From the NCBI RefSeq assembly GCF_023343835.1, contig NC_064471.1, positions 451,501 through 515,500 of the forward strand: a stretch of 64,000 nt of DNA, written 5' to 3'. A program made the translations under genes and the position numbers. Source of the DNA: Lagopus muta. Lineage: Eukaryota > Chordata > Aves > Galliformes > Phasianidae. Shown here piece by piece: positions 3,760 to 60,206 of the stretch. How positions within the stretch are numbered: the stretch's first letter is position 1; each line of letters begins with the position of its first letter. The notes under the pieces were generated by a model. It ran no database searches. It was not told where the DNA came from and worked only from the letters and a program-made list of their open reading frames with translations.

Positions 3760-5440
3760 GAAGTTTACTTTTTTTTTGGACCAATTAAATACAGGCTAGG
3801 AGAACAAGTAGGAATATATAAATTCTTGTACATGCCAGGTTCTCCAAAACGATTATTTGGGCATGACATGTTAGAATAGTTGAATGTAGAGATTAAATTC
3901 AGTAGAGACGATTGGAACTACTTGTCAAGCAAGAGCAATGGACTGAAAATTTTAAGTCTGGCTTTAACACAAACTGGGAAAAGCAATGTTGTACTCCCAG
4001 AAGTTACGTAAATCCTACATTGGGTATACACAGGATTGCAGGCATCAGGGATGCCTGGCAGAGCCAAAAATGCAGCCCAATGAAAGTTAAGTTAAAGATG
4101 GGAGCCAGCCCAACCAGGGTAAAGCAATGCCCTTTGAGGATACAAGATTGTAGGAGGATAAAAGAAATAAAAATAACTTTTTGGATTTTGGATTACTAAT
4201 TGGATAGAAATAAAAATAACTTTTTGGATTTTGGATTACTAATTGGATAGAAATCCAAATACAACACCCAATCTTGCAAATGAAAAATTGGATGGCAAGA
4301 GCTATAGTTTGGTACAAGATTTGAGGGCAATTAATAGAAAAGCTGAATATATACAACTCATGGTGTATATCTTTATTAACCAAGCTAAGGAATAAGCAGG
4401 TGGGGTTTGCCATTCTGGACTTGAAGTACACCTTTTTCTGCCTGGTTTTGCCAAAGAAAGTCTAAAATTATTTGCCTTTGAATAGGAAAACTCAAATATG
4501 GAGAGAAGAAAAAAATAATAATTAAAAGTAATGATAATAATTCAGTTAACCTGCACAGTGTTACCCAGGGTTGTGAGAACAGCCCAGTGATTTTTGAGAA
4601 CTGGTCAACTCGTGAGCCTGAGATTTGGGTTCACCATCTCACAGTGGAAATTTACTGCAGTACGTGGATGCTACAGTAACAAAGGACTGTGTACAATGGA
4701 CTGTGAGCTTGCTGAATTTCTTGATTTAAATGGCTATCAAGTTTCTCAACAGAAAGCACAACTGATCAAAGAGAAGGAAGCAACTTGCTGAACACCCAGA
4801 ACACCAACGCAGAGCTGCCTCCAAGCCAGCAGTGTGCGACTGCATGGAAACTGTCTGTGCCAGTTGGTCAGAGCTACAGGAGGAACCGTTGGACGATGCT
4901 GAGGAGTCCTGGATTCATCGACGGAAGCAGTTTTGTGAAGACAAGGAAACCGTAAGGCAGGACATGCAGTAACTGCTACTGACAGGATAACTGAAGCAAA
5001 ACCATGACCTGTGGGGACTTCCACTCAGAAGGCTGAAATAACTGCCTTCACAAGAACCTTAAATATATATGGACGGATGCTAAATATGCTTTTGGGGTGG
5101 TACCCACTCGTGGTACCATCTGGAAAGAGCAAGGATTGTTTACACACAAGGAAAACAAATTCAGCATGATGTAAATCTACCAAAGAACATCATGGCTGTT
5201 ATACATTGTAAAGGACATCAGAAGAGTGACACTGTACAGGAAACTGGGAATATGATGATGGATCAGGTGGCAAAACAGGCAGCTGAAGGAAAAGAAATTG
5301 GTGAACAGCTTTAATTCCAGACGGTAAACTTGAAATACCTGAACCTTAGTCAGAACCTATAAGGTACTCTAGAAAGGATAGGAATCTAATTAATGAAGGG
5401 AAGAGAGCAAGCTGACAGATGGGTGCATACCCAGATGGAC
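3760..5440 (+). pseudogene. GP1 degraded protease end, reverse transcriptase and RNase H
   Basis: Scraps of gammaretroviral Pol can be read in changing frames: a protease/RT junction near 3780-3900, an RT connection segment near 4700-4790 (LAEFLDLNGYQVSQQKAQ), and an RNase H stretch near 4960-5340 with ACHGHEKQ-like spacing lost to stops. The equivalent region of GR1 (50280-51500, minus) matches at base level. There are numerous in-frame stops, so no enzyme activity is expected. Confidence 0.6.
4164..4249 (+). repeat. Perfect 43-bp tandem duplication
   Basis: A 43-base unit starting GAAATAAAAATAACTTTT is present twice back to back (4164-4206 and 4207-4249) with no visible difference. It lies inside the decayed RT of GP1 and looks recent. 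Confidence 0.9.
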
Positions 5441-31717: not shown

Positions 31718-33265
31718 CTATGGTACACACTGAACATCCACATTTTTCTGCATCACCCACCAAGTGGATCCTGGTCCCTGGGTAAAAACTGTACCACGGA
31801 CATGTTTGCCCTTTCCAGAAGCTGGAAGAACCCAAACTGCCTTTCCTAATATGTTCTTTACATGTACAAGAGGAACTTTATCTCCCTCTACAGTATGTAG
31901 GGAACTGGATTGATTAGGACCATCACGATTAATAGATCCTCTGGTATTGACTAACCAGGTGGCTTCTGCCAAATGCTTCTCCCAGTGCTTAAATGTTCCG
32001 CCACCCAGTGCTTTTAGCATCGTTTTTAACAATTCATTGTAGCGTTCAATTTTACCAGAGGCTGGTGCATGGTAGGGAATATGGTAAATCCACTCAATGC
32101 CATGATCTTTGGTCCAAGTATTTACAAGAGAATTTTTGAAATGAGTCCCATTATCTGACTCAATTCTTTCTGGGGTGCCATGTCGCCACAGGACTTGTTT
32201 CTCGAGACCCAGTATGGTGTTTCGGGTGGTAGCATGGGGTACTGCATATGTTTCCAGCCACCCAGTGGTTGCCTCCACCATAGTAAGCACATAATGCTTA
32301 CCATTGCGAGATCGTGGCAAGGTGATATAATCAACCTGCCATGCCTCCCCATATTTGTACTTTTGCCATCGCCCTTCCTCCCAGAGGGGTTTCATCCTCT
32401 TGGCTTGTTTGATGATGGCACATGTTTCACAGTTATGAATAACCTGTGCAATGGCATCCATAGTTAAGTCCACCCCTCGGTCTCTGGCCCATTTGTATGT
32501 TGCATCTCTCCCTTGATGACCTGAGGTCTCATGGGCCCACCGAGTCAGAAATAATTCACCCTTTTTCTGCCAGTCCAGGTCTATTTGAGCCACCTCAATT
32601 CTGGCAGCTCGGTCTACCTGATGGTTATTTTGCTGTTCTTCAGTAGCCCGACTCTTGGGCACATGGGCATCTACATGGCGCACTTTTACAACCATATTCT
32701 TTGTTCGGGCAGCAATGTCTTTCCACAGTTCAGCAGCCCAAATAGGTTTACCCCTTCTTTGCCAGTTATTTTGCTCCCACTGCTGTAACCACCCCCATAA
32801 GGCATTTGCTACCATCCATGAGTCAGTGTAGAGATAGAGCACTGGCCAACTCTCCCGTTCAGCGACATCTAAGGCCAGTTGGACAGCCTTTACCTCTGCA
32901 AATTGACTTGATTCTCCTTTCCCTTCGGTGGCCTCTGCAACTTGTCGTGTGGGGCTCCACACAGCAGATTTCCTTCTGCGATGCTTCCCCACAATACGAC
33001 ACGACCCATCTGTGAACAGGGCATATTTCTTTTCATTCTCTGATAGTTCATTGTATGGGGGGGCCTCTTTAGCACGAGCTACTTCTCCTGGTGGTGTTCC
33101 AAACATTTTACCTTCAGGCCAGTCCATGATGACTTCTAGGATTCCTGGACGGCTGAGGTTCCCCATCCGTGCTCGTTGTGTAATCAGTGCAATCCACTTG
33201 CTCCAAGTGGCATCAGCAGCATGATGGGTGGAGGGAACCTTTCCTTTAAACATCCAGTTCAGCAC
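31718..33265 (-). CDS. LK4 RNase H and integrase, open frame
   Basis: 515 residues collinear with LK1 26840-28390, without the stop LK1 has between connection domain and RNase H. RNase H motifs (ALFTDGSCR, SSQFAEVK, LYTDSWMV) and integrase motifs (HETSGHQG, CETC, WQVDYITLP, ESDNGTHFKN, GKIERYNEL) are all present. A stop near the very end removes only the last few residues relative to LK1. Upstream it is in frame with the RT piece 33401-33748, separated by a single TAG at 33401-33403. Confidence 0.9.
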   Translation of the reverse strand: MLNWMFKGKVPSTHHAADATWSKWIALITQRARMGNLSRPGILEVIMDWPEGKMFGTPPGEVARAKEAPPYNELSENEKKYALFTDGSCRIVGKHRRRKSAVWSPTRQVAEATEGKGESSQFAEVKAVQLALDVAERESWPVLYLYTDSWMVANALWGWLQQWEQNNWQRRGKPIWAAELWKDIAARTKNMVVKVRHVDAHVPKSRATEEQQNNHQVDRAARIEVAQIDLDWQKKGELFLTRWAHETSGHQGRDATYKWARDRGVDLTMDAIAQVIHNCETCAIIKQAKRMKPLWEEGRWQKYKYGEAWQVDYITLPRSRNGKHYVLTMVEATTGWLETYAVPHATTRNTILGLEKQVLWRHGTPERIESDNGTHFKNSLVNTWTKDHGIEWIYHIPYHAPASGKIERYNELLKTMLKALGGGTFKHWEKHLAEATWLVNTRGSINRDGPNQSSSLHTVEGDKVPLVHVKNILGKAVWVLPASGKGKHVRGTVFTQGPGSTWWVMQKNVDVQCVP

Positions 33266-35293: not shown

Positions 35294-36832
35294 ATGAGTA
35301 ACAGTATTGCCAGTATGAAAAGTGAAGATGTGTTATTTGACCTTTTAGAAAAGCATGGTGCTCGTCCCTCTTTGTCAGGGGTGGACTGGGCACGCCAAAA
35401 TTGGCATAATTTGCAGAGTGTTTCGGACCGCATTAGTGTCTTACAGAATGAGGCTCGTTCACGAGCTGGAAAAGGAAAGTCGTTTACTTGTGCCGTTCTC
35501 GGGGCTGCTTTAAAAGCTGCCGTGGAGTTCCGAAATGAAAAGCATTCGGCAGAACTCCAAACCATAGAAGCACTACAGGAGTCGGTTAGAGTTACACAAG
35601 AATTCGTAAAAACTCTGCAGAATCAAATAGTTAATCTCGGGGAACAACTAGAAAGAGAGAAACATAATTCGACCTTGTTGCAGATGGCTTTCAAGGAACT
35701 GTTAACACGTAAAGATACTGGCGATACTGTCACCCATAGGTTGCCTCAAGAAAAAACTTTTCCTCAGGAGGAATTACAAGAAATAAAGGAAAGACTAGAC
35801 AAATTAGAAACCCCAATAGCCCCATTGCGTCCCTTGATAAAAACAGAATATACCTTCGATAACAGTGAGGATCTAGATCCTCAAATGAATGTTAAGGAAA
35901 TTCCGTTCTCGGCCACCGAACTAGCAAAACTCAAAAAGGACTTTAGCCGCTCTCCAAAGGAATCAGAGACAGAATATGTGTGGAGGGTGAGTCTCACTGG
36001 TGGCGATCAGATTCAGTTAACAGAAAAGGAAGCAGAAGGTTATTGGGGACCAGGAGTATTTTTAACTACCAGTAACAGTCGTGCTCCCTGGTCATTAACA
36101 CAGAGGGCTGCCTATTGGGCAGGTGGTCTCAACCCTTTGGAAAGGGGAGACCCTCTTGCCATTACTGGAACTACTGACCAATTAGTAGAAAGCGTTCAAA
36201 AGGCTGTTTGTCTCCAACTGATGTATGATAGAAAGCTGCAGCCACATCATGAATCACCCATGATGATGCCCGTTGATCCTGAGAGAATGACCCCTTTAAT
36301 TAGAGGGCTTCCAGAATCACTAAAACCCATAGGCATACAATTACAAGCAAGGATACAAGCTATGTCACAGGGAGAAAGAACCCGGGCAGTGTTAGAAGAA
36401 ACTGTAACCCCCAACCATCTGCAGTCAGGATGCAAAGTATGGACGTGGGGGGAGGTAGCCCAAGAGTTAATTAATTATGGAAGAAAATATGGGCCGGCGG
36501 TTTCTTTTCCCAGTAAATCTGAGCCAAGAGGTGTAAGGCTTGCAGTAGCCAGTCTTGCCCCCAGGCCACCTAGCCCAAAACTTAATGGAGCTGAAAAGGG
36601 TTTGCCCCCAATAAAAACAGGTAGACGGAGTATTGATCATAAACGTAATGGACTTTGGACTCTGGGCTGGAAAAGGGGTATTCCACGAAATTTGATGGAT
36701 GGATTGACAACAGATAGATTAGAGAAATTAGTTAACTGGTGGCCAGAACAAAAACTCGAGAATCTAGAGGAAAGCAAAACCCCGGTCCTAGGGCCTCTCT
36801 CAGGGAACCTGAACGGCTATCCAAGCCATTAG
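35294..36832 (+). CDS. ENS-1: ENS-1/ERNI-like Gag-derived protein, intact
   Basis: 512 residues, open from ATG to stop (ENS-1 is recalled as about 490 residues). Residues ~1-80 form an N-terminal helical domain, and ~85-137 are a predicted coiled coil (LQTIEALQESVRVTQEFVKTL ...). The middle (about 200-340) looks like a divergent capsid: LKKDFSRSPKESETEYVWRV, AYWAGGLNP, and a PEISLKP-type helix. The C-terminal part is basic and Pro-rich (LAPRPPSPKL) and ends NLNGYPSH. No zinc knuckle. ENS-1/ERNI is an early-embryo protein reported to bind chromatin partners. The symbol is tentative and could equally be a paralogous Soprano Gag. Confidence 0.65.
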   Translation: MSNSIASMKSEDVLFDLLEKHGARPSLSGVDWARQNWHNLQSVSDRISVLQNEARSRAGKGKSFTCAVLGAALKAAVEFRNEKHSAELQTIEALQESVRVTQEFVKTLQNQIVNLGEQLEREKHNSTLLQMAFKELLTRKDTGDTVTHRLPQEKTFPQEELQEIKERLDKLETPIAPLRPLIKTEYTFDNSEDLDPQMNVKEIPFSATELAKLKKDFSRSPKESETEYVWRVSLTGGDQIQLTEKEAEGYWGPGVFLTTSNSRAPWSLTQRAAYWAGGLNPLERGDPLAITGTTDQLVESVQKAVCLQLMYDRKLQPHHESPMMMPVDPERMTPLIRGLPESLKPIGIQLQARIQAMSQGERTRAVLEETVTPNHLQSGCKVWTWGEVAQELINYGRKYGPAVSFPSKSEPRGVRLAVASLAPRPPSPKLNGAEKGLPPIKTGRRSIDHKRNGLWTLGWKRGIPRNLMDGLTTDRLEKLVNWWPEQKLENLEESKTPVLGPLSGNLNGYPSH

Positions 36833-38492: not shown

Positions 38493-38705
38493 CCATCTTG
38501 CCACTTTATACGTAGGAACTGAATCTCCTGGGCAGGTCCTTTCACTTTGCTTCGCTTAATAGCAAAATTAGCTTGCAGAAGAATTTGGATTATTCGCTCT
38601 CCTTCCGTGAAGACTCCTTCTGCTGTATCGCCCCACACAATGATGACATCAATGTACTGCAGGTGCTCAGGAGCACTGCCCTGTTCCAATACAGTTTGGA
38701 TTTGT
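38493..38705 (-). pseudogene. LK4 RT palm fragment between EN2 and CR1
   Basis: Minus-strand match to LK1 26120-26310, including the QYID(V)IIVWGD region in which the first Asp of the catalytic YIDD pair reads as Val after one change. Cut by EN2 and by the TTCGTG-rich sequence and CR1. Confidence 0.8.
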
Positions 38706-38760
38706 TCATGTTCGTGCTCGTTCGTGTTCGTTCGTGTTCGTATGGATACAGTTCGTGTTC
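38706..38760 (+). repeat. TTCGTG-type short repeat
   Basis: Irregular tandem TTCGTG/TTCATG hexamers lie between the LK4 RT and the CR1 body. It is not part of the LK sequence and could be extra sequence made at the CR1 5' junction. Confidence 0.6.
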
Positions 38761-39216
38761 AAAGAAGGGCAACAAAGCTGGTGAGGGGTCTGGAACACAG
38801 GCCATATGAGGAGAGGCTGAAGGAGCTGGGAATGTTGAGCCTGGAGAAGAGGAGGCTCAGGGGAGACCTTATTGCTCTCTATAACTTCCTGAAGGGAGGT
38901 TGTAGTGAGCTGGGGGTCGGCCTCTTCTCTCGTGTCATTAGTGATAGGACCAGGGGGAATGGTTTCAAGCTACGCCAGGGGAGATTCAGGCTGGACATGA
39001 GGAAGTATTACTTTTCAGAAAGGGTGGTCAGGCACTGGAATGGACTGCCCAGGGAGGTGGTGGAATCACCGACCCTGGGGGTGTTCAAGGAAAGACTGGA
39101 TGTTGTGTTGAGGGACATGGCTTAGTGGGAGCTATTGGTAATAGGTGAACGGTTGGACTGGGTGATCTTTTAGGTCTTTTCCAACCTTAGTGATTATATG
39201 ATTCTATGATTCTATG
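38755..39216 (+). mobile_element. CR1 LINE, 5'-truncated 3' end
   Basis: Encodes the last part of the CR1 ORF2 ([20 protein letters not shown] ... [14 protein letters not shown]) and ends with the CR1 3' UTR and its ATTCTATG repeat tail. It matches 46863-47240 inverted. Inserted in LK4 RT. Confidence 0.9.
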
Positions 39217-43873: not shown

Positions 43874-43963
43874 TGTGGGAATCAAATGTTGTTTCTGCAT
43901 TAGAATTAGGTAATATTTTTTGATTTTATGGTCTCTGCTGCTATAGTTTTATAGTTTTAGATA
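43874..43963 (+). repeat. GP2 LTR stub
   Basis: First ~90 bases of the GP LTR (TGTGGGAATC...), after which GR1 LTR sequence begins in the opposite orientation. Confidence 0.75.
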
Positions 43964-44375
43964 GTGTTTTTCCCAGAATTTGTATACATATTCATTACAT
44001 TTCCAAGAACCCATCAGCATATGGTCCCTCCCTCTTGCACAGTGCGCTGTAGGCAGTGGGGGTCTTCTTCTGGTGGTCACTGAATGAAGGCTCATTGTCT
44101 TCAACCGAAAAGTAATCGGATCAGACCTGTTCCTTGTGTGATGTTATCTTCAAGTTTACAATAGTTTCAAGATGTTCTTGTCTTATCTGGCCTCAAATCC
44201 TGCTTACCTGCATTCTTATGCAATGGTTAACCCTTATCTTGTCCTCTCTTTACTCACATTCCTATGCAATGGTTAATCCTCATTTACTGCACATCCTACT
44301 TGCTACATTCTTTTGTCTTGTCTTCCTTTACAGCAGGCCCATGTTTCCCCAAACTCAATCCCCCCTTTTTCTTGA
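43964..44375 (-). repeat. GR1 3' LTR (U3 part) and polypurine tract
   Basis: Matches the U3 of the 5' LTR (53944-54316). R and U5 (about 160 bases) are missing. On the minus strand AAAAAGGGGGGAT precedes the start TGAGTTTGG at 44357. Confidence 0.8.
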
Positions 44376-44640
44376 ACCTAGCAAATTCTTTTGCTAGATT
44401 ACTCTATTGGGGAAAAGAGAAGTTATGAAATAACTCCCTTTCTTGTGAAATGCATTCAGTCCACTAGGGCAAAACTCATCATCGGTCCTTCAAGGCCTAC
44501 TGTACTTCTCAGTTTCTTTCTTTCATTACAATCCCTGTTTCTATATACTTTTCAGACCCCCCTCATTTAATTTGTACAGGTCCTTACCTCAATTCCTTTA
44601 ACCTGTATACTACTGCGAAAAAATATTCTTGCTCGGACTA
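44376..44640 (-). pseudogene. GR1 env 3' tail
   Basis: Minus-strand reading ends with LAKEFARFKKKGGIEF-like codons running into the polypurine tract, as in gammaretroviral Env tails. Upstream frames are broken. The plus-strand SH2 gene region begins at its far edge. Confidence 0.4.
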
Positions 44641-44760
44641 GCAAAAGACCTTCAGAGGTATAAACTAGTTATACATTGTAACTATTCATGCCAGACAGAC
44701 CCTCTTGACATGATCACGCGACGTCTAGCTTGTACACCGGGCATGGGTGTCAGCAGACAC

Positions 44761-44766
44761 TATAAA
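44761..44766 (+). promoter_or_regulatory. Possible TATA box of the SH2 gene
   Basis: TATAAA 61 bases before the SH2 ATG, followed at 44770 by CCATTGGC. Distance would give a short 5' untranslated region. Chance occurrence cannot be excluded. Confidence 0.35.
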
Positions 44767-44826
44767 GACCATTGGCAAGCCCCACCAAAACTGAGGTGGC
44801 TTGGTGGAGGCGAGTGGCAAGGAACC

Positions 44827-45504
44827 ATGGGTTCGTGTGTGACAAAGGAGATGGCAGATTGCCAATTGACAGAAGAACCCATCAATTATACATGGAACCT
44901 GCTTTACATTCCCCAGACTGGGAGCAGACAGAGGAGACGACCTGCACAGAAGGAGGTCAGCACCAACATCGAGCTGCATCTCGTGCAGGAATGGTTCCAT
45001 GGCAAGCTGGGGGCAGGGCACGGTGGGCGGCACATAGCCAAGCGGCTGCTGACAGAGTTCTGTGCCAAGATGGAGGCCCCTGATGGCTCCTTCCTCGTCA
45101 GGGAAAGCAAGACTTACGTTGGGGACTACGTTCTATCCTTCTGGCACAGTGAGAAGATACGGCATTGCCGCATACACTGGCGACAGGATGCTACCAGTCA
45201 GAAGTTCTTTGTGACTGACACCCAAGTATTTGACAGCCTGTACGACCTTATCGCCTACTATTGGGAGACATCGCTAAGGTACAACGGACTTGAGATAAGG
45301 CTGACTGAGCCGGTGCCTTGGTCCAACACTTACGCCAACACAGACCGGGTGCCGTGGGATGGCACCAGAGGGACGAGCCCGGCTCCAGCGCCATCTACTT
45401 CAGGGCAGGAAGGAAGATCGAGCACTGCCAAATGTGGCAAGAGAGTCACATTTAATACAGCACTTAACCAAGTACACATTGTTCAAGTTCATCGCCCACA
45501 ATAA
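44827..45504 (+). CDS. Acylation-type N terminus + PLCG1-like SH2 domain protein, intronless
   Basis: 225 residues. The ATG at 44827 (ACCATGG, an ideal Kozak context) is chosen over the in-frame ATG at 44629, giving MGSCVTKE: Gly2, Cys4 and Thr6 fit N-myristoylation plus palmitoylation as in Src-family kinases. A basic patch RQRRRP lies at 34-39. Residues ~54-160 form one SH2 domain (WFHGKLGAG, SFLVRES with the pTyr-binding Arg at 92, HCRIH at 113-117, FDSLYDLI), closest in my reading to the N-terminal SH2 of phospholipase C gamma 1. The tail has GKRVTF at 204-209. No catalytic domain. AATAAA (45500-45505) overlaps the stop. The PLCG1 domain is split by introns in vertebrates, so this is a retrocopy. 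It is antisense inside GR1. It could act as a membrane-bound phosphotyrosine decoy; that is inference. Confidence 0.8.
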   Translation: MGSCVTKEMADCQLTEEPINYTWNLLYIPQTGSRQRRRPAQKEVSTNIELHLVQEWFHGKLGAGHGGRHIAKRLLTEFCAKMEAPDGSFLVRESKTYVGDYVLSFWHSEKIRHCRIHWRQDATSQKFFVTDTQVFDSLYDLIAYYWETSLRYNGLEIRLTEPVPWSNTYANTDRVPWDGTRGTSPAPAPSTSGQEGRSSTAKCGKRVTFNTALNQVHIVQVHRPQ

Positions 45505-45559
45505 AAGTTTTTGTTCTGCACTAACAACAGAGTCCACGTCTAATTGCCACAGTTAAACC

Positions 45560-45900
45560 TTCCTCTTATTTGTCTTCCTCAACCTCTATGAGGACCTTTG
45601 GACAGGAAAGGGCATAGAGGGGCTTTACCAGTATTCCATAGTTGTAGGCGGCACCACCTCATCATCCCTAGGAAAGTCTGGAGCTCATTCCAGAGTCTCC
45701 TCGCTGTTCCCTAGGGTTCGGGATCCCAAAGTAATTCCGTAACGCAAATGAGTTACTTGTGGCTGTGCTGCTTGGGCTTTCTGTGGAGAAACTTGATAGC
45801 CTTTAAGTCTGAGAAAGTTTAGTAAGCTAATTGTCCATGTTATGCATTAACTACTTTGTTCCTCCCTCTTTAACCATTAGGAGGTCTAGAACCATTCTAT
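45560..45900 (-). pseudogene. Gammaretroviral RT fragment
   Basis: Minus-strand reading LLNFLRLKGYQVSPQKAQAAQ matches the RT connection block of GP1 (4700-4750) and GR1 (51110). It is out of order relative to GR1 integrase and env, so it belongs to another insertion or a rearrangement. Confidence 0.65.
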
Positions 45901-46440
45901 TTTGCATCATCACTTTGGACAAAGAAGATACCACCTCTTGGATTGTTCACAATGCATTTGTTGTGGCATTACTATTTCTAGAGTTGCAGAGATATTCACT
46001 ATAGCCTTTTCCCACTGAGCTACTCTTAAGACTGGGATAAGGGCTCTCATGAAGCTATGGTATCTCGTATTGCACCTTACCAATGGGTTATTTACCCTTT
46101 TAACCTTCCTTGAATTTTGATACTGGCTCTAAATAGTTCTCACTATGCCTGGTGAGAGTTTAAGCTCTCCCATCTCTGCCCAGCCACCAGAAAAATTTAA
46201 ACAAATGACACTTGCTCATTATATTACTTCCATTATGACATTCATGCCCACTAATGAGAGTGTTATTACTTTCCTTAATAGCATAAGTATGGAAATGTAA
46301 GGTTCATTCAAATAGAAGGGAAAAGAGTGACAATCACACATTTAACAATAACAAATAAATAAATATAACACAAAACATAGTACTATTAAAACCAAAATGC
46401 AACAGCACACATCAACTCACCACAGATATCACCCTATGTA
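45900..46440 (-). pseudogene. GR1 env 5' part, degraded
   Basis: On the minus strand the start resembles the signal-peptide region of the EN env (TTATTTGTTATTGTTAAATGTGTG near 46360-46300). Several stops follow. Too decayed to define domains. Confidence 0.4.
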
Positions 46441-46479
46441 CACTGAAATAAAGCAAGTTACTAACCAACTCATCTTTTC

Positions 46480-46745
46480 CTTATGAGTTTAACTTTTCAC
46501 AGTGCACTTTCCTTGAAAGACCAAGTAGTTCCTCAGCATCCTGGAATAACCTCCTGGAACAATACTTTAGTTACTCCAAGTGCCTTATTAGTCCTACAAG
46601 GGAATGCCTCTACCCACTTTAAAAAGGTATTAGTTAGTACCAGCATACAACGATACCCTCCTTTTCTTGGGAGTTCCGAGAAATCAATTTGCCACTGTTG
46701 CTCTTCCTTCTAAATCATTAATTAGATTCCTATCCTCTCTAGAAT
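46480..46745 (-). pseudogene. GR1 integrase core fragment
   Basis: Minus-strand reading contains DFSELPRKGGYRCMLVLTNTF and WVEAFPCRTNKA, the first part of a gammaretroviral integrase core with its first catalytic Asp. The remainder is lost to stops, and a CR1 copy abuts at 46779. Confidence 0.65.
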
Positions 46746-46778: not shown

Positions 46779-48977
46779 TCATAGAATCATAGAATCACCA
46801 AGGTTGGAAAAGACCTAAAAGATCATCCAGTCCAACCATTCACCTATTACCAATAGCTCCCACTAAACCATGTCCCTCAACACAACATCCAGTCTTTCCT
46901 TGAACACCCCCAGGCTCGGTGACTCCACCACCTCCCTGGGCAGTCCATTCCAGTGCCTGACCACCCTTTCTGAAAAGTAATACTGCCTCATGTCCAGCCT
47001 GAATCTCCCCTGCCGTAGCTTGAAACCATTCCCTCTGGTCCTATCACTAATGACACGAGAGAAGAGGCCGACCCCCAGCTCACTACAACCTCCCTTCAGG
47101 AAGTTATAGAGAGCAATAAGGTCTCCCCTGAGCCTCTTCTTCTCCAGGCTGAACATTCCCAGCTCCTTCAGCCTCTCCTCATATGGCCTGTGTTCCAGAC
47201 CCCTCACCAGCTTTGTTGCCCTCCTTTGAACACGTTCCAGGGCCTCAATGTCTTTCTTGCAGTGAGGGGCCCAAAACTGGACACAGTACTCGAGGTGCAG
47301 CCTCACTAGTGCTGAGTACAGGGGAACAATCACCTCTCTGCTCCTGCTTGCAACGCTGTTTCTGATGCAGGCCAGGATGCCATTGGCCTTCCTGGCCACC
47401 TGGGCACACTGCTGGCTCATGTTCAGCCGAGCATCAACCAATACCCCCAGGTCCATTTCCTCTATGCAGTCCTCCAGCCACACCGCCCCAAGCCTGTAGC
47501 GTCGCCTGGGGCTGTTGTAGCTGAAGTGCAGGACCCAGCATTTGGCCTTGTTGAAACTCATCCCATTGGCTACAGCCCAGCTCTCCAGCCTGTCCAGATC
47601 CCTCTGTATGGCCTCGCTACCCTCAGGCAGATCCACACTTCCAGCCAATTTAGTGTCATCTGCAAATTTACTGAGGGTGCACTCAATGCCCTCATCCAGG
47701 TCATCAATAAAGATATTGAAGAGGACAGGCCCCAGCACCGACCCCTGGGGAACACCACTCACGACCGGTCGCCAGCTGGATTTAACTCCATTCACCACCA
47801 CTCTCTGAGCCCAGCCCTCCAGCCAGCTCCTCACCCAGCCAAGAGTGTACCCATCCAAGCCTTGGGCTGCCAGCTTCTGCAGGAGAATACTGTGGGAGAC
47901 GGTGTCAAAGGCTTTGCTGAAGTCTAGGTAGACCACATCAACAGCCTTTCCCTCATCCACCAGATGGGTCACTAGATCATAGAAGGAGATCAGGTTGGTC
48001 AAGCAGGACCTGCCCTTCATGAGCCCATGCTGGCTAGGCCTGATCCCCCGGTCATCCCGCACATGCCGCATGATCTCCCTCAAGACAATCTGCTCCATAA
48101 CCTTCCCTGGCACCGAGGTCAGGCTAACGGGCCTGTAGTTCCCTGGATCCTCCTTACGACCTTTCTTGTAAATGGGAGTCACATTGGCAAGCCTCCAGTC
48201 TTCTGGGACCTCACCAGTCAACAAGGAGCGCTGACAGATGATGGAAAGCGGTTCGGCTATCACCTCCGCCAGTTCCCTCAGCACTCTCGGGTGGATCTCA
48301 TCTGGCCCCATAGACTTGTGGCAGTCCAGTTGGAGTAGTAGGTCTCTGACTGTTTCTTCCAGAATCACAGGGGGGTTAGTGTGCTCCCCAGCCGAGATTA
48401 CCAGGTCAGAGAGAGGAGTATCCTGAGGATAACTGGTCTGACTTTTAAAGACAGATGTAAAGAAGGCATTCAGAACCTCCGCCTTTTCCTTATCCTCAGT
48501 GGTCACATTCCCAGCCTCATCCAGCAAAGAGTGGATATTCTCCTTTGTCCTCCTCTTACTGTTAATGTATTTATAAGAGTTTCTTATTCCTTTTCACCCC
48601 AGCAGCTAGGTTAAATTCAAGCTGGGCTTTTGCCTTTCTGATTTCACCTCTACACATCCTAACGACTTCCTTGTATTCATTCTGAGTTACCTGTCCCTCT
48701 TTCCACAGGCAGTATATTCTTTTTCTCCCAGAGCCTCAAGAATAGCTCCCTATTCATCCACGCCGGTCTTCTTCCCCGACAGCTCATTTTGCAGCTCAGG
48801 GGGACTGCCTGCTCCTGCACCCTTAAGACTTCCTTCTTGAAGAGCAACCAGCTCTCTTGGACCCCTTTACTTGCTAAGACCGAATGCCAGGGGACTCCCC
48901 CTATTAGTCCCTTGAACAATTCAAAGTCCACCCTCCTGAAGTCCAAGGTAGCAGTTCTACTATTCCCCCTCGATCAG
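46779..48977 (-). mobile_element. CR1 LINE, long 5'-truncated copy
   Basis: 3' end at 46779 with the inverted ATTCTATG-type tail (CATAGAATCATAGAATC). Holds the RT-containing ORF (next entry) and, after a frame break at 48530-48670, an upstream piece (48677-48946) from the region between endonuclease and RT. The endonuclease itself is missing. Confidence 0.95.
46863..48527 (-). CDS. CR1 ORF2 reverse transcriptase, open fragment
   Basis: 554 residues. Non-LTR reverse transcriptase: the fingers region holds [16 protein letters not shown] and [10 protein letters not shown], the palm [11 protein letters not shown], and [18 protein letters not shown] and the catalytic FADDTKLAG carry the active-site aspartates. 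The thumb and the conserved CR1 C terminus ([19 protein letters not shown]) follow. Known role: target-primed reverse transcription of CR1 RNA. No endonuclease domain in frame, so it is not autonomous. The open length suggests a fairly young copy. Confidence 0.92.
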
Positions 48978-49102: not shown

Positions 49103-49872
49103 TGTCAACAGTTTACGGGCTGGTTCGGCCTGGTTCCATGACCAGCAGGGCGGAGGGATCTGCGGATCCGCACCTCCGGGAAAGGGGAAACAGGGGACCC
49201 CAAAATACTTGAAAACAACAGTAACAATCTGAGGTGGAACAAATGATTTACTAAATATAGTATTAACAAAAAAAAAAAAAAAAAAAAATAGATAAATAAA
49301 TACAATGAGAGAGAGAGAGAGCCTGTCTGGATGTTAGATAGTCCTCACCACAATGCTGAGGTGAGAAGTGCAGTCCAGTTGAGTGACTGAAGCGCAGACG
49401 GCAAAGCGCAGACGGCAAAGCGCAGACGGCAAAGCGCAGACGGCAAAGCGCAGACGGCAAAGCGCAGACGGCAAAGCGCAGACGGCAAAGCGCAGACGGC
49501 AAAGCGCAGACGGCAAAGCGCAGACGGCAAAGCGCAGACGGCAAAGCGCAGACGGCAAAGCGCAGACGGCAAAGCGCAGACGGCAAAGCGCAGACGGCAA
49601 AGCGCAGACGGCAAAGCGCAGACGGCAAAGCGCAGACGGCAAAGCGCAGACGGCAAAGCGCAGACGGCAAAGCGCAGACGGCAAAGCGCAGACGGCAAAG
49701 CGCAGACGGCAAAGCGCAGACGGCAAAGCGCAGACGGCAAAGCGCAGACGGCAAAGCGCAGACGGCAAAGCGCAGACGGCAAAGCGCAGACGGATCAGGT
49801 GACCTTGCATGGAGTTATACCTCTTTGCTGACCACAAAGCCTCCTGGGGAAATGTAGTTCTTCTCTCGTCTG
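49103..49872 (-). repeat. LK3-type LTR containing a minisatellite, U3-truncated
   Basis: Minus-strand version of the LTR at 29769-30234 (shared GGATCCGC, CCCCAAAATACTTGAAAACAAC, AGTTGAGTGACTGAAG). It ends with TGTCAACAG at 49103 and is cut off in U3 near 49872. A 14-bp array (49391-49793) replaces a ~45-base segment of the reference LTR. Confidence 0.85.
49391..49793 (+). repeat. 14-bp minisatellite, about 29 copies
   Basis: Near-perfect tandem array of GCGCAGACGGCAAA inside an ERV LTR. The reference LTR at 29965-29985 has a single diverged copy (CACCGTCTTTTCTTCAGTC, other strand). Because 14 is not a multiple of three and the unit has no stop in any frame, all six frames can stay open; those frames are not genes. 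Confidence 0.97.
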
Positions 49873-49999
49873 GAGATCCTTCCTTCTGGTGTTTTGTGGT
49901 GAGCCTAGCATTTATTCTCTCTTGTTATCATAGTCCACTTCGCCTAACTCTCTTGTTTATTTTGTGATTGTAACAACTTGCTATCCATTGATTATACAC
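49873..49999 (+). repeat. LA-family LTR scrap (R-U5 end)
   Basis: Resembles the last ~130 bases of the LA1 LTRs (CTGGAGATC, TTCTGGTG, TGTGATTGTAACA, end TTATACA). Confidence 0.7.
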
Positions 50000-50279: not shown

Positions 50280-50888
50280 TTACCGTCTGGAATTAAAGCC
50301 TTCTTCAACTACCTGCCCTGCCACCTTACCCATCATCTTATTTCCAGTTTCCTGTACAGTGTTACCTTTCTGAGGTCCTTTACAATGCGTAATAGCCACG
50401 CTCCTTGGTAGGTTTAAATCATGCTGTTTTCCTTTTGTGTGCATCCTTGCTTTTTCAGATGGTACTACGATGTGTGGTATCCCAAATACATAATTAGCAT
50501 CTGTCCATATAATTAAGGCTCTTGTCCAGGCAGTTATTTCAGCCTTTTGTGGGAAAGTCCCCTCAAGTAATGGTTCTGCTTCGATTACCTTGTCAGTAGC
50601 AGCTACTGCATATCCGGCCTTACAGTTTCCTTGTCTCACAAAACTGCTACTGTTGGTAAACCAGGTGTCTTCTGCGTCTTCTAAAGGTTTGTCCATCAGG
50701 TCGGACTGGCTGGAATATGCCTGCTCTACCAGGATGGCCTGGAATTTCAAGAACCTTTGAGGTGAGAGCCAGTGCCCTCCTTTTACCTCCCATACAGTAG
50801 ACACTGTATGAGATATTAAAACTGTTATTCTTTGGCCTAGCAAAACTTGAGTACTAGTGCAGCCATTGCCTTCAAGCACCCCGTCCAC
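50280..50888 (-). CDS. GR1 RNase H, open fragment
   Basis: 202 residues. The start resembles the RT/RNase H connection of gammaretroviruses (SPQRFLKFQAILVEQ). RNase H follows: TWFTNSSSFVRQGNCKAGYAV, where the first catalytic Asp of the usual TDGSS motif is Asn; QKAEITAWTRAL with the Glu; IIWTDANYVFGI with the second Asp; and SVAITHCKGPQKGN at the end. The frame is open but missing one metal ligand. It sits upstream of a CR1 piece, so it no longer joins integrase. Confidence 0.8.
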   Translation of the reverse strand: MDGVLEGNGCTSTQVLLGQRITVLISHTVSTVWEVKGGHWLSPQRFLKFQAILVEQAYSSQSDLMDKPLEDAEDTWFTNSSSFVRQGNCKAGYAVAATDKVIEAEPLLEGTFPQKAEITAWTRALIIWTDANYVFGIPHIVVPSEKARMHTKGKQHDLNLPRSVAITHCKGPQKGNTVQETGNKMMGKVAGQVVEEGFNSRR

Positions 50889-53760
50889 CCTTTACTCACT
50901 TCATCAAGCTGTTTGGTTGAAGTGTGCCACTGCCCAAGGTTCTGGTAGCCCCAAAGCAGAGGGCATTCATGAGTTCATTCCTGGGAAGGTATGGAGTTCC
51001 TTGGCAGTTTGTGACTCAGGGGTTTGGCAGATGGCTTCTTTCCTGGCAGTCCTTAAGGTTTGAACTCCAGCTGTAATCTCATATCCCAAATACGTCTTTC
51101 TGTTGAGAAACTTGTTAATCATTTAAACAAGAAATTCAGCAAACTCACAGTCCATTGCACACAGTCCTCTTTGTTTCTGTGATGCCCACGTACTGCAGTA
51201 AGGTTCCACTCTGGGATGGAGAAACCCAAGTCTCAGGTTCATTAGTCGACCATCTTTCGAAAAATCATTGAGCTGTTCTCACAACCCTGGGTAACACTGT
51301 TCAGATTAACTGAGTCTTTTCTCCCCATACTGGGGCTTTTCTATTCAAAGGCAAATAACCTTAGGCTTCCTTTGGCCAAACCAGGCAGAAAAGGCATTCT
51401 TCAAGTCCAGAAGGTAAACTCCACTTACTAATTCCTTAACTTGGTTAATAAGGTGTATGGATTTTTCACCACTTAGTGTATACATTCAACTATTCTATTA
51501 CTTGTCCTCAGATCTTGTTCCAAACTATAGCACTTGTTTTCCATTTATTTATCTATTTATTCAGGTTTGGAGTACTGTGTTTGGATTCATATTCAATCAG
51601 TAATCCAAACTCCAAAAATTACCTATTATTTCTTTTATCTTTCTACAGTCACATATCCTCAAAGAGCTCTGCTTTACCCTGACTGGGCTAACTCTTGCTT
51701 TTAACTTAACTGCTGTTTAGGGCTGCATTTTTGAGTCTGCCAGGTATCCCTGATACCCACCCTCCTATGCGTTTCTTATTCATGATTTCTGTAACTTCTG
51801 GGGCTGTAATCTTGTTTTTCCCTGTTTGTGTTAAAGGCAGACTTAAAATTCTCAATCAGTTAATACTGTTTGATCCTTAGCTCCAGTTTTATCTAACTTC
51901 TTGCCAGAGTAACCTGGCATGTACAAGAATTTGTGTATTCCTACTTGTTTTCTCAGTCAATATTTAATTAATCTCAAAAAGTTAGCCTTTTCTTATTGGG
52001 CATTAGCTCCTTCTATTGTTGCAAAATCACCTACAGGTGGCAACTGTATCCATCAAAATGTAAACTTTATCCTGCTCCCCTAGCTGTAATTTAACCAGTG
52101 GATCTGCTAGGGTAAACTTCCCAGATTCCCATCCATCATCTTTGCAACCAGAGACTGTTCCCTCTTTCTCAGTAATTTACACTTTATTTTCATTCCAGAG
52201 GGGTGAAGTCCTCCCTGGGCTCTTCCAGCCCTCCCCCCACCTCTCTCTGAGTGGATCCCTGGGTCCTACAGCCCTACTCTAGTGCTGCAACAGTAACAGC
52301 TGCTGTTATTCTCAATTTCCTTATTATCTCTGTTTCTCAATCAGTTTTTTTTGTTTTTCCTTCATATCACACACCTCTCTTCAGTCCTGACATCCCTGTT
52401 ACACCCTTCTCATCTTTGCCTTCCTCAGCCTGTGTCCATCCCAAACTTTTCACTTTCCAAACTCATCATTACATAAACTACTAGCATCATTTTTCAGCTT
52501 TACCTCCTCTTCTCCAGAGGCTTCCAGTGTTAACACTGGGATTTCCTAGATCTCTGCAGAGGCTATTCTTACTTCCAGTGCCCTGTCCTCTCTACCTCCC
52601 CCTTAACAAGTAACAGCAGTCTCTGTCCCCGGCTCTCTTTCTCTCACACACCAAGTTCTGCTCCCAGGGGAATGGTGTGGGTGTTGCTCTCATGCCAGCG
52701 AAGATGAACTCACTTTATCTTTAACCCTTTTTCCTTTGTTCCACTATTAGTACCTTCAGTTACACTTGCACATACCCCTCAATTCTATACCATTAACAAT
52801 TACACTTATACCATCAAAACAGTTTGTCTCATTCTCTTCGAAGTCCACAAATCAAACCATACAGTTCTTCAGTTTCCATAAACACCCTTAATACCATGTA
52901 ACTTCTCACTAACAATCCACAACGTTTGGTTATAAACACCTCACCACAGAACCAGCACTGATTGACCCACCTCCCTCACACATCTCCTTGCAAGCAGAAT
53001 ACAATATTACATAAATGAGTTGACATTCATTCCCTGAATGGAGCAGGCATCTCTCTATGAATCTATCATCCCCATTCAGAAATTCATACAGAAACATAAA
53101 GACAGACAGAGATCACTGTTATACTCCGCGCTCACACTGCAGCTATGCCATGTCACAGTTCTCAACACATTTGCTCGCAATCACACACAATGCCGGCTTT
53201 ACACTTTAACAAATCAGAGCTCCGGACTCCTTTTGAGTGTTTTGATAACAATTCTCAAATACACGGTACCGAACACTTACAACCAATGGTGACAGCAGTA
53301 ACAATAACTACGATTCTGTTATACCTGTTATATCCACAACAACCCACGTAAACATTAGACAAAACTGGTGTTATCAATCACTTAATAACTAGCGCGCTTA
53401 ATGACTATTGTTTCTTCCTTGCGTACGCCTTATGGGCTTCATTTGTAGGGTTTCCTTTCCAAGGAATTGCCCTGTACCCAGCTTTCTTTGAAGGGTTTCC
53501 CTTCCCAAGGAATTGCCCTTGTACCCAACTTGTGAGCTCACCCACCCAGGGGAGAGCACTCAGGCCCTTTTCTACCCCGTGTAGGACATCTCCGTACACC
53601 TTATGGGTTCCTCTTTCTCCTAAACATACCTGGTCCGCCGACAAATGGTCCTCATCTGCCCCTGCAGTGATTGGATAAGAAAGGAGAATCCTTCTGAAAA
53701 ATCTTGGGGTGCACCAAAGGCATCCCCCCTCTCAGCCGGTCCTGCAGCCGGACAGAGATT
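50889..53760 (-). pseudogene. GR1 decayed leader, gag, protease and RT
   Basis: Base-level matches to GP1 run along it: RT near 51050-51480 and 51480-51720, protease/RT near 51780-52030, and gag before that. Frames are short. A leader frame (53405-53644) contains a twofold ~38-base repeat (CCTTTCCAAGGAATTGCCC). The tandem repeat of GP1 gag is absent here. No complete domain is readable. Confidence 0.55.
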
Positions 53761-54316
53761 GTCCCATCTGGGGTGCCAAATTGAATTACGGAAACAAACT
53801 CTACAACCCAGAGTTAGGTTATAAAGCAGATATGTTTTATTCAGCATTTGGAGCCAAGCTGGGTGCAAGGGGGACAGCTAATCTAAACTTGCACACCGTA
53901 GGACAAAAGCATGGTACAAACATAGGCCGAACTAATACATAATCAGTGTTTTTCCTGGAATTTGTATACATATTCATTACATTTCCAAGAAGCCCTCTTG
54001 CACACGTGCCATCACCAGTGGAGGTCTTCTGATGGTCACTGAATGAAGCCTCATTGTCTTCAACCAAAGTAATCTAATTAGACCTGTTCCTCATGTGATG
54101 CTCTCTTCAAGTTTACAATAGAGTTTCAAGATGTACTTTACTTACCTGGCCTCAAATCCCGCTTAACTGCATTCCTATGCAACGGTTAACCCTTATCTTG
54201 TCCTCTCTTTACTCACATTACTAGGCAATGGTTAATCCTCATTTACTACACATCCTACTTGCTACATTCTTTTATCTTGTCTTCCTTTACAGCAGACCCA
54301 TGTTTCCCCTAACTCA
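53761..54316 (-). repeat. GR1 5' LTR and primer site
   Basis: LTR 53782-54316 (535 bp) starts TGAGTTAGG and ends TTCA on the minus strand, with AATAAA near 53835. Three bases on, TGGCACCCCAGATGGGAC (53778 down to 53761) differs at two positions from the complement of tRNA-Arg(CCT), a tentative primer assignment. Confidence 0.75.
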
Positions 54317-54390
54317 AAGTCACAGAATTCAGAGACCAGCAGCCTAAGGCGGAAACCCAAACCATAGAATCACTACAGGAATTAGTTAAG
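54317..54390 (+). pseudogene. EN3: scrap of ENS-1-like gag
   Basis: Matches EN2 gag near 35530-35600 (ACCATAGAAxCACTACAGGA). LA3 begins at 54391 inside it and GR1 ends before it. Confidence 0.7.
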
Positions 54391-56763: not shown

Positions 56764-57996
56764 TTAACTGCCAGTTTCGCTTGTTGGAAAGCATCCTGTT
56801 CGGTTTTCCCCCAGTCCCATAGCTGCCCCTTTTTTTGTGAGTCTGTATAGTGGCCTTAGCAGCTGCGCTAGGTGAGGTATAAAGGAACGCCAGTAACCCA
56901 ATATACCTAGAAACTCTTGCAGCTGCTTTGATGTTGTAGGGACTGGGAAGTCCTGAACCTTATCTATGACAGCACTGGGTAGCACTTTGGTCTTTCCTGA
57001 CCAAACCACCCCCAGGAATTTTACGGACAGGCCTGGACCTTGCACCTTTTGGGGATTTATAGCCCATCCCCTCTGTTGTAAATAGGCGGTTAATGAATCT
57101 GCTGCCTGTCCTACTGCCTCCAGTGAGTCGGATGCCAACAGGAGATCATCAATATAATGATATAGGTTAACATCATCAGGTTTTGTCCACTCAGCCAGGT
57201 CACGTGCCACTAGATTGTGACAATACGTTGGTGAATGCACGTACCCCTGTGGCAGGACCTGAAAGGTCCACTGCCTGCCTCCCCACATAAACGCAAACTG
57301 ATCTTGCGCTTCTTCAGCAATTGGAATACTGAAGAATGCATTTCCTAGATCTAGGACACAATGATAGGTTTTTATCTCCCTACTCAATGTGTCCATTAGG
57401 AAGGAAACATTGGGTACGGCCGCATGAATAGGCGGCGTGACCTTATTTAATTCTCTGTAATCTACTGTCATCCTCCATGTGCCATCCGACTTTCGCACTG
57501 GCCATATGGGGGAGTTACACGGGCTGTGTGCAGGTCTTATAATGCCTACTTTTTCTAATTCCTGCACTGTTCTCGATATTTCATCTTGCCCACCCGGGAG
57601 TCTATACTGACTAACATTAGTAATCCGGCACGGTTTCAGCAGGCAAACAGGCTCATGTTTCGCATGGCCTCTTAATATCGCCTGCACCAGCTGGATACTG
57701 ATACATCTTTGTTGAAGTCTGAACTCTCCCACAGTTGTTTGGAGAGCCAGACCCCATAGAATATCTATGCCTAGGATGTATTCTTGGACTGGGGCAATAG
57801 ACACCTTGTACTCCCGGGGTGGGAGACGCCCAACCCCCAATTTTAACCATGTTTGGGTGACAGGAATAGTCTGTCCCCCAAAACCACCAATCATCACTCT
57901 GTCGCCATCAAATTTTCCAGGATCTCCATAGATAATTGATGTTTCTGCTCCTGTGTCTACCAATGCCATCACTCTCTGAATATTTTTTCGGGACCT
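56764..57996 (-). CDS. LA3 protease-RT, continuous open frame
   Basis: Protease with VDTGAETSII and ILGIDILWG flows directly into RT (TVDYRELNKVTPP, LPQGYVHSPTYCHN, YHYIDDLLLAS, thumb) without the TGA of LA1/LA2. The frame is open on to 58143, but those last ~50 residues are antisense of the AV1 LTR and not part of the protein family. It ends at a frameshift in the connection domain. Catalytic residues of both enzymes are present. Confidence 0.88.
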   Translation of the reverse strand, partial: RSRKNIQRVMALVDTGAETSIIYGDPGKFDGDRVMIGGFGGQTIPVTQTWLKLGVGRLPPREYKVSIAPVQEYILGIDILWGLALQTTVGEFRLQQRCISIQLVQAILRGHAKHEPVCLLKPCRITNVSQYRLPGGQDEISRTVQELEKVGIIRPAHSPCNSPIWPVRKSDGTWRMTVDYRELNKVTPPIHAAVPNVSFLMDTLSREIKTYHCVLDLGNAFFSIPIAEEAQDQFAFMWGGRQWTFQVLPQGYVHSPTYCHNLVARDLAEWTKPDDVNLYHYIDDLLLASDSLEAVGQAADSLTAYLQQRGWAINPQKVQGPGLSVKFLGVVWSGKTKVLPSAVIDKVQDFPVPTTSKQLQEFLGILGYWRSFIPHLAQLLRPLYRLTKKGAAMGLGENRTGCFPTSETGS

Positions 57997-58320
57997 GTAG
58001 TTAGCTGAATGGGCTGGGGCAGTCGCCAGGGTCGCCAGGGGCCCCTCGGCCCCTGGGAAACCATGGCAACAAATGACCTGAAGATAAGAGAGAAGAACAG
58101 GATAGACCAAATAAGGAAGAAACAAGACATGCCACATGTCCATTGGTCAGGTAGTAGCCCTAAGGCATGGGGAAAGTTTTAAGAAGGGTGTGCTCCTTGC
58201 AATTAGGGCCATTTTGCCGCTCACCATATTGGTGTCATGAAAAGCGCGCGAAACTGACAGGGGCTGTTGGAACACTTTCACAAGGAGACTTCAGTCAGGG
58301 TCGCCGAAACAAAGGCGACA
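57997..58320 (+). repeat. AV1 5' LTR (alpharetrovirus type)
   Basis: Starts TGTAGTTAG and ends GCGACA just before a primer site. The segment CCATTTTGCCGCTCACCATATTGGTGT (58211-58236) is the well-known R region of avian leukosis-type LTRs with few changes. The polyadenylation signal expected just before it reads AATTAGG, so it is damaged. Confidence 0.8.
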
Positions 58321-58511: not shown

Positions 58512-60206
58512 ATGGAATCTGTCATTAAGGTATTATATCAAGTTTGTAAAACGTACTGCGGGAAAACCTCCCCTTCTAAGAAGGAGGTGGCCACCGTTCT
58601 TTCTTTTCTTGTAAAGGAGGGACTTCTTTCTTTTCCTTATGAGATTTATGACTCCAGCAAGTGGGACTCTTTGATATTAGCGCTCGCTCAGAGAGCTATG
58701 TTGTCCCAAGGGGCGTCGGTGCTTAAATTTTGGGGTCCGATTCGGGGGGCTTTGAAGGCAGCGAGGGAAGAAAAGACTGCCAAAAACCTTGCCAGAGATC
58801 TGTTGGGTTTGGATCCGGGCGGGGGGGGGTCACCGCGGCCGGGAGACTCTAACCCCTTCAAGGATCTGCCCCAAGACAAGATGGCACCAGACGCACCGAC
58901 CTTGCCAGAAACACCAACACCGGAAAAGAAGGAGGAAGAGTCGCCATCATCTCCGACGGCTCCGCCCCCGTATCCTCTCCAGTACCCCTCTTTGCATGGC
59001 TTTCGTCAGGGGGAGGATCCTACACGGGTAGGGGTAGGGGTAGGGGCAGGGGCCGAGGTATTGCTGGCTGCGGCTCCGCCCTCAGGGGCCGAGCGATTGA
59101 TGGTTGCGGCTCTGCCCCTGCCACCCGTTCCGCCCTCCCAAATGCCCTCCCAAACGGCCAGGGTCCCAGCTAACTTGGGGAAAGGGGCCTTATTTATCGA
59201 TTGGGGCCGGGTAAGGGAGGAGATGAGAGCAGCGGAGCTCTTGGATGATTATAAGACATTCCCTGTAGAGATCAGGGGACAGGGACCTGTTTGGATTCCT
59301 TTAGACCCAAGGGCAGTAACTCACCTCGCTGAGACAATAGGGAAGAAGGGTTTACGATCGCCCGCTACACTTTTTGCACTGGAGGCAATTATGGTGCCGG
59401 GACCTTTGCTCCCATACGATATAGAGGGCCTCATGCAGGTGATACTTGAGCCAGTGCAGTATATGTTGTGGAAGGAAGAGTGGTTGGCACAGCTCAGGGC
59501 TGTAGTCGCAGCAGCGACATGTAACCCACAACACCCAGCAAATGGTAGGGAACTTGGAAAGGTAACTAATCTGACACGGTTGTTAGGGTATGGGGAAGGG
59601 ATGATAGGTTCCCCTGAAGGCCAGTTCAGACGCCTTCGCCCAGGAGAGCTGATGGCGGCCACAGAAGCAGCTCTGACAGCCTTCAGAAGGTTCTCCAGGA
59701 CAGCTGAACCTTCTGCTCCCTGGGCAGAGGTAGCCCAGGGTCCATCTGAGTCATTCTCGGATTTTGCCAGTCGATTGATTCGGGCAGTAGAAGGCTCAGA
59801 TCTGCCAAAGATTGCCCATAATGCAGTAATCATGGATTGTCTTAAACAGAAATCACACAAAAATGTTAAGGATCTTATTCGAGCCGCTCCCGACGACCTC
59901 AGTACTCCGGGAGATATCATTAGGTATGTACTAGAGAAACAGAGAACAACGCCCCTCACCAATGAGGGATTAGCAGCAGCGTTAGTAGCGGCGATGGCCA
60001 TGAGGGAGGATCAGAGTAGGGGACCATGTTTTAAGTGCGGACAGTTTGGTCATTTCAGAGCCCAATGCCGAGCCCCTGGGAGACAGAAAGGGGAAGCAGG
60101 GCCAGACCAGACTTGCCAAGCCTGCGGGAGATCAGGGCACTCCGCACGCCAATGTCGGAAGTTTGTCATAGTGCCGCAGGGAAACGAGGATGGGAGGGTG
60201 CCTTAG
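58512..60206 (+). CDS. gag: AV1 Gag, intact alpharetrovirus-like polyprotein
   Basis: 564 residues. Matrix with TYCGKTSPSKKE near the N terminus and ALKAAREEK; late-assembly motif PPPY at 151-154; a Gly/Val-Ala-rich spacer; capsid from about residue 230 (DWGRVREEM) with the major homology region QGPSESFSDFASRL near 412; nucleocapsid with two zinc knuckles (CFKCGQFGHFRAQC at 506-519 and CQACGRSGHSARQC at 535-548). All canonical residues are present. It ends at TAG after the knuckles; protease, which in alpharetroviruses continues in the gag frame, is here in the -1 frame and decayed. ATG follows a ~170-base leader. Like other endogenous copies it may still assemble particles; that is inference. 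Confidence 0.92.
   Translation: MESVIKVLYQVCKTYCGKTSPSKKEVATVLSFLVKEGLLSFPYEIYDSSKWDSLILALAQRAMLSQGASVLKFWGPIRGALKAAREEKTAKNLARDLLGLDPGGGGSPRPGDSNPFKDLPQDKMAPDAPTLPETPTPEKKEEESPSSPTAPPPYPLQYPSLHGFRQGEDPTRVGVGVGAGAEVLLAAAPPSGAERLMVAALPLPPVPPSQMPSQTARVPANLGKGALFIDWGRVREEMRAAELLDDYKTFPVEIRGQGPVWIPLDPRAVTHLAETIGKKGLRSPATLFALEAIMVPGPLLPYDIEGLMQVILEPVQYMLWKEEWLAQLRAVVAAATCNPQHPANGRELGKVTNLTRLLGYGEGMIGSPEGQFRRLRPGELMAATEAALTAFRRFSRTAEPSAPWAEVAQGPSESFSDFASRLIRAVEGSDLPKIAHNAVIMDCLKQKSHKNVKDLIRAAPDDLSTPGDIIRYVLEKQRTTPLTNEGLAAALVAAMAMREDQSRGPCFKCGQFGHFRAQCRAPGRQKGEAGPDQTCQACGRSGHSARQCRKFVIVPQGNEDGRVP

Follow-up and report, generated by a model that had tools for sequence, protein, structure and literature searches.

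A PLCG1-derived, SH2-only reading frame antisense in a decayed gammaretrovirus-like provirus: a possible receptor decoy

The retroviral oncoproteins v-Crk and v-Src both carry SH2 domains of host origin; v-Crk has no catalytic activity, and v-Src is myristoylated and located between env and the 3′ LTR. LTR-mediated retrocopies of host sequences were reportedly described by Tan et al. in 2016. According to the part of a review that deals with them (PMC8622228), the known retroviral antisense frames are mostly shorter than 200 residues. SH2 capture by retroviruses, LTR-mediated retrocopies and antisense retroviral genes are already known one by one. Here we describe a PLCG1-derived, SH2-only frame lying antisense in an endogenous retrovirus (ERV), an arrangement not reported among the titles listed in our search of the open-access literature, and for which a report elsewhere is possible.

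Within the window, by which we mean the entire 64,000-nucleotide stretch of DNA analysed, a frame of 225 codons encoding an SH2-only protein derived from PLCG1 extends from 44827 to 45504 on the plus strand, as read from the open reading frame, the Pfam assignment and a PDB sequence search. Pfam places an SH2 domain (PF00017) at residues 56–145 with 65.8 bits (E 3.7e-18; cut-off 21), and at E values up to 1 only SH2 models appeared in the frame. Among the best 60 of the 220 relatives in the PDB search, PLCG1 ranked first (E 3e-61), followed by PLCG2 (1e-34) and SHP2 (5e-11). The motifs GRHIA (residues 67–71), FLVRES (89–94) and HCRIH (113–117) are kept; SH2 membership is indicated both by the score above the curated cut-off and by the presence of the phosphotyrosine-binding arginine of FLVRES. 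By sequence comparison, the domain is the N-terminal SH2 (nSH2) of PLCG1, in agreement with the preliminary description of this locus, which had proposed a single PLCG1-like nSH2 with FLVRES and HCRIH and without any catalytic part.

Specifically, the nSH2 core (residues 47–168; 44965..45330, plus strand) is identical to PLCG1 at 79 of 122 positions (65%), with no indels and no stops. When PLCG1 chain positions 470–830 were compared with the window by tblastn, the in-frame match ran from 44872 to 45345 and included, ahead of the core, a remnant of the linker and of what we take to be the end of the split PH domain (44872..44964, plus strand), with gaps of 10 and 2 codons relative to PLCG1; when frameshifts are penalised less heavily, two compensating ones take the place of the gaps in this linker. 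On the other side, a remnant of the C-terminal SH2 (cSH2) lies in another frame of the same strand (45330..45443; tblastn, 19/38 identical, E 4e-5), between it and the nSH2, first 16 and then 4 codons are missing relative to PLCG1, followed by a frameshift. All the indels found relative to PLCG1 are located outside the nSH2 core. Since the cSH2 remnant is in another frame, the last ~50 residues of the product correspond to frameshifted cSH2 DNA, and the two matches together indicate that the copied piece spanned the end of the split PH domain and the nSH2, and reached into the cSH2. PLCG1 sequence extends through both sides of the SH2 domain without introns, so that the earlier call of an intronless gene holds on the exon structure that we assume for PLCG1; the frameshifted cSH2 tail and the antisense orientation described below had escaped that first reading.

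Beyond this piece, about 45 earlier PLCG1 residues compared with 44360–46600 gave a best E of 0.04, on the opposite strand inside the gene, which we took as chance, and the portion from the end of the cSH2 through the SH3 gave a best E of 0.8 in the same region. The catalytic halves X and Y/C2 reached a best E of 1.0 in the whole window. Assignment to the PLC-gamma enzymes (X and Y halves, split PH, two SH2 and an SH3) was considered and rejected, as catalytic and SH3 matches are missing and the cSH2 is out of frame. Searches for relatives in IMG/VR contigs and GTDB genomes returned pattern matches, none of which was confirmed.

The ATG at 44827 has an optimal context (A at −3, G at +4), and the coordinates, the stop codon and the MGSCVTK N terminus given in the preliminary description proved exact. 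These first seven residues match a PROSITE-type myristoylation pattern, and the 225-residue product would probably be lipid-anchored through N-myristoylation and perhaps palmitoylated at Cys4 besides. The same frame is open upstream as far as a stop at 44599 and offers two more ATGs in frame, at 44743 and 44710, so that the product may instead be a 264-residue form that lacks the acylation start. A TATAAA lies at 44761..44766 (plus strand), 66 bp 5′ of the ATG at 44827, and a second one at 44659 (plus strand) precedes the ATG at 44710; the acylation claim is weakened by the two upstream ATGs with a TATAAA of their own. At the other end, an AATAAA (45500..45505, plus strand) overlaps the stop codon. 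Counting both strands, TATAAA occurs 34 times and AATAAA 75 times in the window. In a post hoc look, in which a TATAAA 30–125 bp upstream and an AATAAA at the stop were required, just one of the 147 window frames of at least 60 codons had both signals in place, namely the SH2 frame, whether the first ATG (44710) or any in-frame ATG (including 44827) was used. The N terminus was also compared with the other frames of the window as a test of a Gag-derived start, and nothing but itself was found below E 0.5. A structure prediction of the frame from the single sequence was unusable (mean pLDDT 32.5).

The surroundings of the SH2 gene are those of a decayed provirus of gammaretrovirus-like type, to which the gene, on the plus strand, is antisense: the recognisable proviral parts are on the minus strand, with a scrap of transmembrane Env (Env-TM) on one side of the gene and the polypurine tract and 3′ LTR on the other. 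A truncated 3′ LTR (43963..44358), directly preceded by a polypurine tract recognised by eye (44359..44370), pairs with a 5′ LTR at 53781..54317, the matching part of which is 53945–54317 and the inner end of which is approximate; a primer-binding-site-like sequence, likewise seen by eye, follows the 5′ LTR from 53778 downward. Between the LTRs we found the Env-TM scrap, of the gammaretrovirus-type TLV_coat family (45854..45946; E 7.4e-5 and 22.1 bits, slightly short of the 22.5 cut-off), a fragment of the integrase core (rve, 46536..46709; E 8.4e-4, with 20 bits against a curated cut-off of 32.6) and, belonging to this provirus too, a fragment of RNase H (50280..50696; E 1.3e-5). A further minus-strand scrap at 45772..45846, presumably of reverse transcriptase, is like the pol pieces at 51122–51232 and 4591–4788 and breaks the normal gene order; the piece that holds it (45688–45846) gave no Pfam match, and a convincing one was likewise missing for seven further pieces of the minus strand in the neighbourhood of the gene. 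Only 8 bases separate the end of Env-TM from the reverse transcriptase-like start (45846–45854), a patchwork that resembles a template-switching product.

The provirus is interrupted by two further sequences. One is a LINE that we take to be of CR1 type, whose frame of 482 codons has stayed open within the old provirus (46863–48311, minus strand); its 3′ part (46779–47234, 456 bp) is 97% complementary to 38754–39209, where the partner frame is 38640–39125 (plus strand). The other is a minisatellite with a 14-bp unit in 30 registered copies (49292–49893), which carries a repetitive minus-strand frame of 158 codons. The two LTRs differ by a K2P distance of 0.095 ± 0.017 (371 sites), with 6 gap openings, and that both derive from one provirus is the simplest reading rather than a proven one.

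Assuming one provirus, the host-derived sequence lies between LTRs, as in a v-onc gene, but opposite to the sense of the viral genome as given by LTR, polypurine tract, integrase and Env-TM. The intronless host cDNA flanked by LTR-element sequence is what would be expected of an LTR-mediated retrocopy. No run of six or more A or T was found in 45500–45800, where a poly(A) at the insert end was sought, and no 8-mer that could represent a target-site duplication is common to 44560–44830 and 45500–45860; classification as a LINE-type processed retrogene, which would call for both, was set aside. The place of the gene within a single LTR pair, with Env-TM on one side and the polypurine tract on the other, speaks for a route through an LTR retroelement, and either of the two origins proposed earlier, retrogene or viral capture, may apply.

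The earlier statement that all the surrounding ERV genes are decayed is correct for those genes that can be recognised in the provirus around the SH2 frame; other ERVs of the window, however, hold frames of 459–564 codons. The longest is a gag frame of 564 codons, presumably alpharetrovirus-like, open at 58512–60206 (plus strand) and overlapped by an antisense frame of 226 codons (59321–60001); others, ERV-like by eye, are 35294–36832 (plus strand, 512 codons), 31718–33253 (minus, 511) and 56764–58143 (minus, 459). In addition, three pairs of inverted segments are 92–96% identical (22466–26109/39215–42746, 8010–10473/55531–57995 and 6710–9096/19344–21728), these long pairs forming a nest of repeated ERV insertions. 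Scans of the window with Rfam (gathering cut-offs) and for tRNAs gave no matches. An avian origin fits the CR1-type and alpharetrovirus-like content of the window. Bird W chromosomes are described as ERV-rich in the part of the literature used here (PMC8310711), and nothing in the window places it on the W.

Selection on the nSH2 core was assessed with mammalian PLCG1 from the PDB as the baseline, in place of the bird parent, by neutral simulations in which the PLCG1 nSH2 was mutated to the same identity as the observed core. At this divergence, the chance of encountering no stop in the core is 0.08–0.10, and that of neither stop nor indel is 0.011 to 4e-5 for indel:substitution ratios of 0.03–0.10; in the window, the ratio is 0.081 (162 gap openings and 2002 substitutions, from repeat pairs with at least 300 aligned columns). 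The 43 replacements in the core are more conservative than neutral ones (P 0.008–0.014). With the Pfam SH2 model, the core scores 67.9 bits and PLCG1 75.4, compared to 23.0–41.1 for stop-free neutral sequences of equal identity (9/9 sequences). A comparable result was observed with an independent profile of 13 SH2 domains from which the PLCG1 nSH2 was excluded: the core reaches 80.4, PLCG1 89.4 and the 1000 stop-free neutral simulations a mean of 43.5, none of them attaining the core score. If 10 of the replacements are granted to the bird parent the count is still 0/1000, and with 20 it rises to 7/1000.

A core score so far above neutral indicates that the SH2 fold was kept under selection somewhere, in the virus, in the host or in a source gene, and all the constraint may have acted in a source gene before copying. 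Of the sites common to PLCG1 and PLCG2, 48/72 are kept, versus 31/50 elsewhere (Fisher P 0.70), and neutral simulations retain 46–47 of the 72, so that replacements are not scarcer at these sites. The good SH2 score, combined with this lack of avoidance, suggests that the domain drifted or was retuned within SH2 limits. Without selection, the first 168 codons would stay unbroken with P 0.047 (indel ratio 0.08) or 0.005 (0.18) at the LTR-derived age, which assumes both LTRs from one provirus, and P may reach 0.26 for a younger insert; these values hint weakly at selection after integration. The preserved frame had been read as a sign of youth or selection, and of this the simulations uphold past selection on the domain. 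As regards youth, the CpG observed/expected ratio (o/e) is 0.55 in the frame and 0.16–0.27 in its flanks, which fits youth, low methylation or a richer starting sequence; the sequence around the gene may thus be older than the gene itself. CpG content was dropped as proof of this, as a GC-rich source may have had a higher value to begin with.

In the part of a study of PLC-gamma-1 that concerns its SH2 domains (PMC3532599), a functional nSH2 alone was needed for initial FGFR1 binding, as tested with R586L, affinities of about 5 nM and 81 nM were attributed to the nSH2 and the cSH2, respectively, and the cSH2 binds the enzyme's own pTyr783. By our reading, R586 is the FLVRES arginine, which is kept in the frame. 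In the portion of another study that is relevant here (PMC4546648), the viral protein K15 recruits PLC-gamma-1, and the isolated cSH2 of PLC-gamma-2 behaves as a dominant negative on this recruitment; fragments of the gamma array of PLC-gamma-1 are also mentioned there, by citation, as dominant negatives. With the nSH2 kept, the cSH2 and the enzyme lost and a membrane anchor gained, the product would be expected to occupy receptor sites without signalling.

All together, we favour, with a probability of roughly 0.45, a captured SH2-only and probably lipid-anchored decoy, which, if expressed, would rival PLC-gamma-1 for binding to phosphorylated receptors. The starting material would have been a spliced PLCG1 transcript from a bird, or an intron-free copy of such a transcript, comprising the terminal part of the split PH domain, the nSH2 and at least part of the cSH2. 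A gammaretrovirus-like LTR element would have taken it up in antisense, with env on one side and the polypurine tract on the other. Deletion and frameshift would then have cost it the cSH2, the nSH2 being retained by selection. The resulting 225-residue SH2-only protein would reside at the inner face of the membrane and bind the docking phosphotyrosines of PLC-gamma-1, for example an FGFR1-type site, damping the recruitment of the enzyme. Against this, the published dominant negatives are a cSH2 or a longer array and not an isolated nSH2, the cSH2 frameshift is also expected of a decaying copy, and the capture of a host gene antisense to the virus is mechanistically awkward. A bolder version, which we regard as a long shot, would have an exogenous bird gammaretrovirus as the natural vector. 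It would have carried in antisense, complete with promoter and polyadenylation signal, a decoy made from the host PLC-gamma nSH2 and anchored in the membrane, which would have blunted receptor signalling in infected cells, and the endogenised copy would have kept the frame.

Part of the same evidence would suit an ordinary LTR-mediated retrocopy, unlikely in our judgement and still a real contender, in which a piece of an already diverged bird PLC-gamma-like transcript sits in the ERV with an nSH2 that is not yet broken and encodes no useful protein. Retrocopies of this kind are known in chicken, according to the part of the work that treats them (PMC5408686), and a frameshifted, partly deleted cSH2 is in keeping with one. 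Moreover, the fold constraint could have acted wholly in the source gene, and lucky survival after integration has a P of 0.005–0.26, by age and indel ratio. However, such a retrocopy requires a source gene ~65% identical to PLCG1 in a conserved domain, the PLCG1 nSH2 being highly conserved, and the TATAAA and AATAAA that bracket the frame also speak against it.

Those same signals, together with the antisense orientation, are what a host retrogene would bring if it had first been domesticated at another site, where it had a promoter and a polyadenylation signal of its own, and later inserted into, or recombined with, the decayed ERV on the opposite strand. The contrast in CpG o/e (0.55 versus 0.16–0.27) and the steps in GC, up at about 44720 and down at about 45440, point the same way. 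We nevertheless consider a later insertion quite improbable: the ends lack a target-site duplication of at least 8 bp and a poly(A) tail, the gene sits in the env-to-polypurine-tract interval, and the compositional step is not unique, as the right flank is GC-rich again at 45620–45740. Finally, the compact TATA-ORF-AATAAA layout recalls a sense-strand element or a DNA virus with genes of this design, of which this would be the sole survivor; with flanking parts (polypurine tract, LTR, Env-TM and reverse transcriptase scrap) that are retroviral and on the minus strand, and no confirmed relative among IMG/VR contigs, such an origin is barely conceivable.

If the captured decoy that we prefer is used, it would represent a natural dominant negative against PLC-gamma-1, built from the enzyme's own receptor-docking domain and delivered by a retroelement, as well as an example of antisense carriage of a host gene that has signals of its own. 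Even if the locus is silent, it records an SH2 domain whose shape was maintained outside the genes that are named here.

In conclusion, compared with the gamma-specific array of PLCG1 (split PH, nSH2, cSH2 and SH3), the frame has the same nSH2 with FLVRES and HCRIH, the linker and the end of the split PH domain, with 65% identity in the core, and differs in having no catalytic halves and no SH3, a cSH2 out of frame and a new N terminus. With v-Crk and v-Src it shares a host SH2 in an avian retroelement, being devoid of catalysis like v-Crk and resembling v-Src in its position and myristoylation-type start, whereas the PLCG1 origin, the lack of SH3 and kinase, the absence of a visible Gag fusion and the orientation antisense to the provirus set it apart. 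Compared to LTR-mediated retrocopies, as presented in the relevant part of PMC5408686, it is likewise an intronless partial host cDNA between LTRs, but is distinguished by its antisense orientation, by fold constraint over a long divergence and by compact signals of its own. Lastly, as in the HBZ-type antisense genes covered by the part of the review cited above (PMC8622228), an antisense frame lies close to the 3′ end of the provirus; in contrast to them, this frame carries a host-derived domain and its own TATAAA.
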